A stretch of 64,000 nt of DNA from positions 6,262,001 to 6,326,000 of the forward strand of contig NZ_JARUBE010000003.1 of assembly GCF_029626035.1 (NCBI RefSeq), in the 5' to 3' direction. The position numbers and the translations under genes were made by a program. Below, piece after piece: positions 62,689 to 63,921 of the stretch. Origin of the DNA: Micromonospora sp. WMMD980. GTDB lineage: Bacteria; Actinomycetota; Actinomycetes; Mycobacteriales; Micromonosporaceae. Every line of letters begins with the position of its first letter. Within the stretch, counting starts at the first letter, position 1. A model generated the notes under the pieces. The model did not search any database and was not told where the DNA came from. It was given only the letters and a program-made list of their open reading frames with translations.

Positions 62689-63921
62689 TCAGCCGGCGGC
62701 CGGCACCGGGCGGCAGATCAGCACGGTGGGCGCGCCGGCCACCCGGGTCAGCACCAGGCTGGCCGGCTCGTCGCCGGCCAGCCGCAGGTCGCGGCGCAGC
62801 TTCTCCGGCTCCAGCGCCGACCCCCGCTTGAGGATCTCCACCCGGCCGATCCAGCGCTCCCGCAGCAGGGCGCGCAGCCGCTTCAACGAGAAGGGCAGCA
62901 CGTCGGTGATCTCCAGGCAGCGGGCGAACGGGGTGGGTCGCGCCACGTCGGCATAGAGGTAGGCGATCGACGGGTCCGCGAGTGTGGCGTCGAGGTCGGC
63001 GGACAGCTCCGCGACCAGGTGGGCGCGCACCACGGCCGGGTCCGGGTCGTACAGGAACCGCCGGGCCGGGCCCACCGTCGCCTCGTCCGCTCCGGTGCCG
63101 GTGAGGTGATAAAAGGGGGCCCCTCCTCTACCGGAGGCGTTAACCGGGGGCCCCTCCTTGCTCCGCAGCACTGTGGCGCGGCGGGGGACGCCGGCGAGCG
63201 GGCCGCACCAGAGCGCGGCCTCCACCAGGTCGCCGTCCACGCTCACCCACTCGGCCTCGGCGCCGGCCGGGATCAGCGCGTGGTCCAGGCCGGGCGCCAC
63301 CTTGACCACGGTGTGCGGCACCCGCGCGGCCAGCCCGGTGACGAAGTCCCACGGCGGCGAGTAGGCGTTCGGGTCGAAGATGCGCCGGCCGGTGCCGGCC
63401 CGCCGCCGCGCCGGGTCGCAGAACGCGCCGTCGACCCGGGACACGTCGAACGCGGTGGCGTCGCCGCACTCGACCGTGACCAACTCCGCCAGCCCGGCCG
63501 CCTCGGCGTTCGCGGCGGCCATCGCGGCGGTCACCGGGTCGGCCTCCACGCCGTACACCCGGATGCCGGCGCGGGCCGCGGCGAGCGTGTCGGCGCCCAG
63601 CCCGCAGCCCAGGTCGGCGAGGCGGGTCACGCCCGCGTCGCGCAGCCGGGCGGCTCGCCGGTCGGCTACCGGCCGGCGGGTGGCCTGCTCCAGCCCGGCC
63701 CGGGTGAGGAACATCCCGGCTGCTGCGGCGCCGAACTTGCCGGCGGCCCGGCGGCGCAGCTCCGCCTGGGTCAGCGCCGCCGCCGCGAGCCCACCCGGGA
63801 TCCCGGCCGAGCGCAGCGCGGCCGCCGCCGCCAGCGGGTCGCCGCCGGCCACCTCCGCCGCCGCCGCGAGCGCGGCCGACCCCTCGGGGGTACGCAGCGC
63901 GGTGAGCTGGTCGAGATCCAC
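62689..63921 (-). CDS. THUMP-like class I SAM methyltransferase with in-frame palindromic repeat
   Basis: A 410-residue protein. A SAM-binding Rossmann domain (ADLGCGLGADTLAAARAGIRVYGVEADPVTAAMA, DGAFCDPARRRAGTGRR) is followed by a C-terminal THUMP-like domain (GPARRFLYDPDPAVVRAHLVAELS, VLPFSLKRLRALLR, ILKRGSALEPEKLRRDL). Between VLR and HLTGTG lies a ~18-residue insertion [18 protein letters not shown] encoded entirely by a palindromic repeat (63108-63159). GTG at 63921 has GAGAAT 6 nt upstream, leaderless spacing. Target RNA unknown. Confidence 0.85.
   Translation of the reverse strand: MDLDQLTALRTPEGSAALAAAAEVAGGDPLAAAAALRSAGIPGGLAAAALTQAELRRRAAGKFGAAAAGMFLTRAGLEQATRRPVADRRAARLRDAGVTRLADLGCGLGADTLAAARAGIRVYGVEADPVTAAMAAANAEAAGLAELVTVECGDATAFDVSRVDGAFCDPARRRAGTGRRIFDPNAYSPPWDFVTGLAARVPHTVVKVAPGLDHALIPAGAEAEWVSVDGDLVEAALWCGPLAGVPRRATVLRSKEGPPVNASGRGGAPFYHLTGTGADEATVGPARRFLYDPDPAVVRAHLVAELSADLDATLADPSIAYLYADVARPTPFARCLEITDVLPFSLKRLRALLRERWIGRVEILKRGSALEPEKLRRDLRLAGDEPASLVLTRVAGAPTVLICRPVPAAG
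63108..63159 (+). repeat. Palindromic repeat, copy C (inside the THUMP-like methyltransferase gene)
   Basis: A ~52-bp unit aligned with copies A and B (GTTAA/GATAA..GGGGGCCCCTCCTCTACCGGAGGC, then GTTAACCGGGGGCCCCTCCTT). It is read in frame on the minus strand with no stop, inserting a Gly/Pro/Ser-rich loop. Confidence 0.9.

Follow-up and report, generated by a model that had tools for sequence, protein, structure and literature searches.

Excerpted accounts describe palindromes that insert in frame into proteins in Rickettsia and in some REP-rich bacteria. Sections of PMC2229807 and PMC10969869 present Rickettsia palindromic elements as short palindromes, about 105-150 bp long, which lie between genes and also in frame within unrelated protein genes. 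GTAG and CGTC REPs are hairpins located mostly downstream of genes, with some intragenic copies, in the relevant sections of PMC3733652, whose main text does not contain the words Micromonospora, Salinispora or actinobacteria. In a further part of PMC2229807, MITEs (ERIC, RUP, Correia/NEMIS) are described as non-coding sequences with terminal inverted repeats, many copies and occasional in-frame fusion. REPINs are portrayed, in parts of PMC3116915, as dispersed paired-palindrome hairpins, short non-autonomous repeats that accompany RAYT transposases.

Here we analysed a stretch of 64,000 nucleotides from the genome of Micromonospora sp. WMMD980 (the window), in which a methyltransferase gene contains a 60-bp palindromic element. 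Like Rickettsia palindromic elements, the Micromonospora element forms one hairpin (91/100 copies) and occurs in frame in six unrelated protein genes; unlike them, it is 60 bp rather than about 105-150 bp long, resides in a GC-rich host, and is tied to stop codons. By this analogy, it would work like Rickettsia palindromic elements but belong to a different family, set apart by description (length, ends, host). Among the titles and abstract openings listed for open papers, none describes the element, which is not proof of absence from the literature.

The element shares with GTAG REPs a location mostly downstream of coding regions (82/100 copies at a gene 3' end), but carries GGTAG in the middle of its consensus and not at the hairpin end. 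Like REPINs, it is a dispersed short hairpin repeat. RAYT (PF01797) was not found in the WMMD980 genome, a difference from both REPINs and GTAG REPs: Y1_Tnp (PF01797, RAYT-type) gave 0 matches there, with the control detected in 5/14, and a RAYT-driven REP was rejected because this family is missing. Like MITEs, the element is non-coding and multicopy, with terminal inverted repeats (GGTG...CACC); unlike them, it lacks 5'-TA ends. No target duplication was seen at the two syntenic sites compared, and no parent transposon on inspection of the best ORFs between 9 neighbouring pairs. These ORFs, between copies 332-1208 bp apart, were by eye unlike from pair to pair, and a composite transposon was rejected.

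We consider it highly probable that the feature in the methyltransferase gene belongs, as a single copy, to a family of palindromic hairpins of ~60 bp, apparently genus-specific and probably non-autonomous mobile DNA, which is found mainly at gene 3' ends, with rare insertions tolerated in protein linkers.

Structure and copy number

The element occupies 63105-63164 on the minus strand, as delimited by the terminal-repeat consensus and supported by nhmmer, open frame and fold, and encodes about residues 253-273 of the methyltransferase. The original prediction had placed a repeat at 63108-63159. Its presence was confirmed by an nhmmer model built from 100 own-genome copies, the methyltransferase copy among them (match at 63103-63166, 66.5 bits, E 5e-20), and its ends were revised to those of the terminal-repeat consensus. 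The majority sequence over the 100 copies is GGTGTAAGGAGGGGCCCCCTGTTAACGCCTCCGGTAGAGGAGGGGCCCCCTCTTAACACC, and the conserved core, TTAACGCCTCCGGTAGA, lies at 63127-63143(-) with 0 mismatches. Conservation drops just beyond the terminal inverted repeats in the 100-copy model.

On folding, the hairpin spans nearly the whole unit in 91/100 copies, with a mean energy of -30.5 kcal/mol compared with -23.6 kcal/mol for 500 random 60-mers from the same loci (58/500 below the element mean), and is just moderately lower in energy than local 60-mers. The length of 60 bp corresponds to 20 codons, and the methyltransferase frame is open through the element, in agreement with the open frames and frame-keeping length first noted. 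Two frames of the consensus are stop-free, and the third opens if a TAA near the right end is altered.

Two further copies were matched by nhmmer in the window. One, at 12194-12253(-), has a counterpart in the corresponding position of relatives G018, G021 and G026. The other, at 56567-56631(+), is also present in G065, and starts right behind the TGA of an upstream ORF at 54821-56569(+). Alignment of the latter site with G019 and G021 showed a different sequence that was not cleanly empty, and neither of the two syntenic sites compared provided a fully clean empty site with a target-site duplication. A known RNA family was rejected, since Rfam at gathering thresholds gave just a TPP riboswitch within the window, at 11471-11582(+) (RF00059, 64.9 bits).

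Searching the window for the core with up to 3 mismatches gave 3 matches (0.05 expected), and the 13-base core TTAACGCCTCCGG with up to 1 mismatch gave 136 matches in the 6.83-Mb WMMD980 genome, compared with 1 for the reversed pattern. These two comparisons rule out a chance repeat. Neighbouring copies within 2.5 kb of one another were in + then - order in 27/30 pairs. Several copies are compound (L144, L164, L178, L179, L186, L194 and L195), with an inverted second copy or half copy 29-34 bp away forming longer palindromes.

To describe the occurrence of the family, TTAACGCCTCCGGTA was searched with up to 1 mismatch in 101 Micromonospora genomes, the genus being as delimited by the sampling tool, with Salinispora-like methyltransferases included. 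It was present in 51 genomes, 32 of them with at least 20 copies, and was absent from 50; the maximum of 124 was in WMMD980, and the reversed control gave at most 1 match per genome. Among 162 genomes of other genera (of 200 drawn family-wide), 16 contained 1-2 matches, with a maximum of 2, and the reversed pattern had 1-2 matches in 12. As far as sampled, the family is therefore apparently specific to Micromonospora, where it is patchy, because matches in other genera are near the level of the reversed control and half of the congeners have no copies. The repeat had initially been viewed as a Micromonospora-type element.

Placement at gene 3' ends

The surroundings of 100 own-genome copies were examined in fetched sequence stretches, with gene calls from a simple, home-made coding score. 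An ORF ended at the left side of the element in 69/100 copies and at the right side in 57/100, and at least one gene 3' end adjoined in the 82 copies mentioned above. The repeat, first described as lying between genes elsewhere, does so mostly but not exclusively, four further copies among the 100 being in frame within genes. Thirteen copies were neither next to a gene 3' end nor in frame within a host gene, and about six of these look intergenic between divergent genes.

The stop codon of a neighbouring gene lay at -3 to +26 of the left end in 65/100 copies, compared with 2/197 control points 900 bp off. In 13 copies, a TGA ended exactly ahead of the element. The left-side stop was wholly within the element in 44/69 cases (10 TGA and 1 TAG ending at +5, 22 TAA at +7, 7 TAA at +25, and 4 others), and the right-side stop in 8/57. 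Since the left-side stops are so sharply placed and mostly inside, the element often provides its neighbour's stop codon, in a fixed orientation. In one locus, G000:C3:352446 (L007), an ORF runs on in frame into the element, which serves as its C-terminal tail (CVRRGPLLTPPVEEGPPVNA and 22 more codons) and may represent a gene-end fusion. At another, L180 (G000:C3:4874642), there is forward coding signal on either side in different frames, possibly from a gene disrupted by the copy or from two close genes.

This sharp placement of stops at the left end, together with the position of 44/100 copies between two gene 3' ends, would be accounted for if the element were mainly a functional 3'-end signal, a transcription-end or mRNA-stability hairpin selected at stops, with the in-gene copies as accidents or internal attenuators. 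We regard this explanation as a serious one that falls somewhat short of an even chance. Copies are missing from half of the genomes sampled in the genus, so such a signal is not generally needed. A scan of 55000-64000 found no terminator-like site at the two copies that it covered, and a T-tailed terminator was rejected for these two.

In-frame copies in protein genes

The host gene in the window, at 62689-63921(-), encodes a class I SAM methyltransferase of 410 aa with a C-terminal THUMP-like domain, assigned from its ORF and from the Pfam Thump_like and methyltransferase domains. Its coding score is 0.59 on one side of the element and 0.60 on the other, and the element is read in frame f2. 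Next to it, an aminoacyl-tRNA deacylase at 62139-62626(-), presumably YbaK-like, is split into two ORFs (62399-62626 and 62139-62363), as from a one-base shift near 62415, which is a genuine frameshift or a sequencing error.

The methyltransferase segment from RRAT to VGP was examined in 90 of the 101 Micromonospora genomes. The element was detected at the DNA level in 29/90 (nhmmer >30 bits), at an identical place and in an identical orientation in all. The insert peptide was KEGP(P/L).NASG in 23 of the 29 carriers, with close variants such as KDGPLVNASG in the remaining 6, and two junction types occurred, LR.KEG and L-KEG. The frame reached the C-terminus in all but the frame-broken G091, and four others had a single stop at the very end.

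Among the methyltransferases without the element, 15/90 had a segment of 23 residues (for example, RRATLLRGDTPHVLTG and RRATLLRGDTPHVLTGSGAAEAP), compared with 36 in WMMD980; others contained intermediate or unrelated expansions. An insertion of about 18 residues, visible as a clean gap against homologues, had been predicted. The shorter element-less homologues uphold the insertion, but the gap to the shortest of them is 13 residues and not 18-20, so it is not perfectly clean. Some segments resemble decayed inserts (REKEGNVNAGQ, KEGAPPDAAAGG), and decayed remnants were found in element-poor genomes. In the element-less methyltransferase of Micromonospora matsumotoense (L080), the loop contains a tandem RPTDGSDGPG-type repeat instead. 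Judged from these sequences, the loop appears generally permissive to expansions.

Presence of the methyltransferase insert tracks the abundance of the family, as it was found in 25/30 genomes with at least 20 family copies and in 4/60 with fewer. G035 has 67 family copies and a methyltransferase without the insert. G094 has 0 family copies and G057 has 1, and both still encode the peptide from a degraded repeat; an in-gene copy is therefore able to outlive the family.

Five of the 100 own-genome copies examined lie in frame within genes, which gives for these 100 copies the tally of in-gene cases that had been proposed as a check. A first in-gene score gave the methyltransferase alone as clear and three weaker open candidates; ORF reading and a better scan gave five, all with a frame open through the element and coding signal on both sides. 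The other four hosts are a CcdA-like membrane protein, as we name it (frame f0, peptide RRGPRLTPPVEAGPPVN; Pfam DsbD_TM slightly under the cut-off), an acyl-CoA carboxylase alpha subunit (frame f0; BT_MCC_alpha domain extending across the element site), an NRPS condensation domain (frame f0; PF00668 matched in two stretches), and a SNF2 helicase identified by Pfam search (frame f2), which has the weakest coding signal (0.62 and 0.23) and is backed by homologues. A sixth host, a kinase-like gene with the element in frame f2, is present in relatives G019 and G021; its name was taken from the source names of listed homologues, and Pfam gave P0008 no match. The orientation of the element relative to the gene is identical in all six hosts, and the host sites of in-gene copies are length-variable linkers.

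The element was present in 18/30 CcdA-like and 11/30 carboxylase homologues, each set being the 30 nearest of 101 and so biased towards carriers. Three of 22 NRPS homologues contained it, though G009 among these three does not span the site, and G065 has a decayed form. At least 14 SNF2 homologues (among the 120 listed of 508) and at least 4 kinase-like homologues (among the 120 listed of 1351) carried it. A Micromonospora chalcea kinase-like protein 90% identical to a carrier lacks the element and reads LHDHGDGRLLKV at the site. A peptide search by way of the methyltransferase returned only methyltransferases, with 7 matches of 54 candidates; this search is insensitive, and the other hosts were found via DNA. 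Six unrelated hosts, two frames, element-less homologues, and element-rich and element-poor congeners support the suggested likeness to the protein-entering Rickettsia palindromes, with membership in the Rickettsia family not claimed.

Maintenance and origin of the in-gene copies

Retention of A/T-ending codons, which are rare in this GC-rich genus, was measured in pairwise genome comparisons, confined for the methyltransferase to 25 element-rich genomes. Retention was 1520/1746 (87%) in the methyltransferase insert compared with 1924/9479 (20%) in its flanks, 910/979 (93%) compared with 252/2089 (12%) for the CcdA-like protein, and 278/292 (95%) compared with 1128/2757 (41%) for the carboxylase. 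Within the CcdA-like insert, TTA was kept in 17/18, GTA in 17/18 and CCT in 16/18. Among the conserved columns of the flanks, codons end mostly in A/T in 0/169 in the CcdA-like gene, 2/277 in the methyltransferase and 13/485 in the carboxylase.

Differences at the three codon positions of the methyltransferase were 0.23, 0.21 and 0.24 in the insert, whose last columns are partly misaligned, compared with 0.09, 0.07 and 0.27 in the flanks. The insert is not extreme in synonymous difference, with 20/393 17-codon windows lower. Because A/T-ending codons are retained and the codon positions vary about equally, DNA rather than peptide is apparently conserved, and the in-gene copies appear to be maintained at the DNA, not the protein, level in element-rich genomes. 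Selection of the peptide itself as a useful loop, with the DNA likeness secondary, is hardly credible: the insert persists in G094 and G057, but two reading frames are used in different proteins and encode two unrelated peptides, rare codons are retained, and the insert positions vary about evenly where flank positions 1 and 2 are constrained.

Homogenisation among copies may be partial at best. At one stem position, 51 genomic copies of G018 have G and 3 have A, and its methyltransferase copy has A; in G006, 40 genomic copies have G and 148 have A, and the methyltransferase copy has G. Full concerted evolution was rejected, as both methyltransferase copies carry the minority base.

On a gene tree of 89 methyltransferases, presence and absence of the element cost 14 changes, compared with a mean of 24.7 and a minimum of 17 in 1000 label shuffles; 17 losses would be needed if the element had been gained once, at the root. 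The tree is compatible both with an ancient single insertion that was then lost or exchanged many times and with repeated insertion at one spot. The dispersal of carriers over this tree and the two junction types lend something to the idea that independent re-insertion at one preferred spot per host gene, and not inheritance, accounts for the shared inserts and for how well their DNA matches. We think this unlikely, given that every shuffle needs more changes than observed, that place and orientation agree in 29/29 methyltransferases, and that decayed remnants persist in element-poor genomes. Moreover, AGTAAA is common to the methyltransferase copies of G019 and G021 and occurs in 0/15 genomic copies read in each.

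We favour a mobile origin with subsequent inheritance. The element would have spread through part of the genus as a non-autonomous palindromic unit, its copies presumably arising by transposition in trans and being placed or retained at gene 3' ends with the left end on the stop codon. Rare insertions into permissive protein linkers would be tolerated owing to the unit's length of 20 codons and the two stop-free frames of its consensus. Within the genus, these insertions may later have been passed on, shortened or lost, and gene conversion between copies, or a factor that acts on DNA or RNA, could keep them family-like. The host proteins with the insert would remain functional.

One consequence concerns the codon TTA, which is absent from the 12108 codons of the 38 clearest coding ORFs in the window. 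The CcdA-like, carboxylase and NRPS stop-to-stop frames contain one TTA each, located in the element; these three host genes have it because they read the element in frame f0. Inserts in frame f2 lack TTA, and the core bases are kept in f0 and f2 alike. Control of the TTA-bearing host proteins of the bldA type is only a possibility from these sequences, and part of PMC4255298 doubts a developmental role for bldA outside Streptomycineae.

We tentatively propose, at well below an even chance, that orientation-coupled insertion or retention locks the left end to stop codons, and that the copies, those within proteins included, are kept family-like at the DNA level, by gene conversion or through a binding factor. 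As a by-product, at least six conserved proteins would have been rewritten and UUA introduced into three, which could impose a bldA-type tRNA dependence.

The stop-codon link and the DNA-level conservation go beyond the original prediction, and the former is a concrete lead on how such repeats get placed. Where Micromonospora proteins share GPLLTPPVE or KEGP-type segments, these are probably relics of DNA and not functional motifs. With element-rich beside element-free species, and one gene occurring in both insert-bearing and insert-free form, Micromonospora makes the origin, cost and maintenance of such insertions testable.
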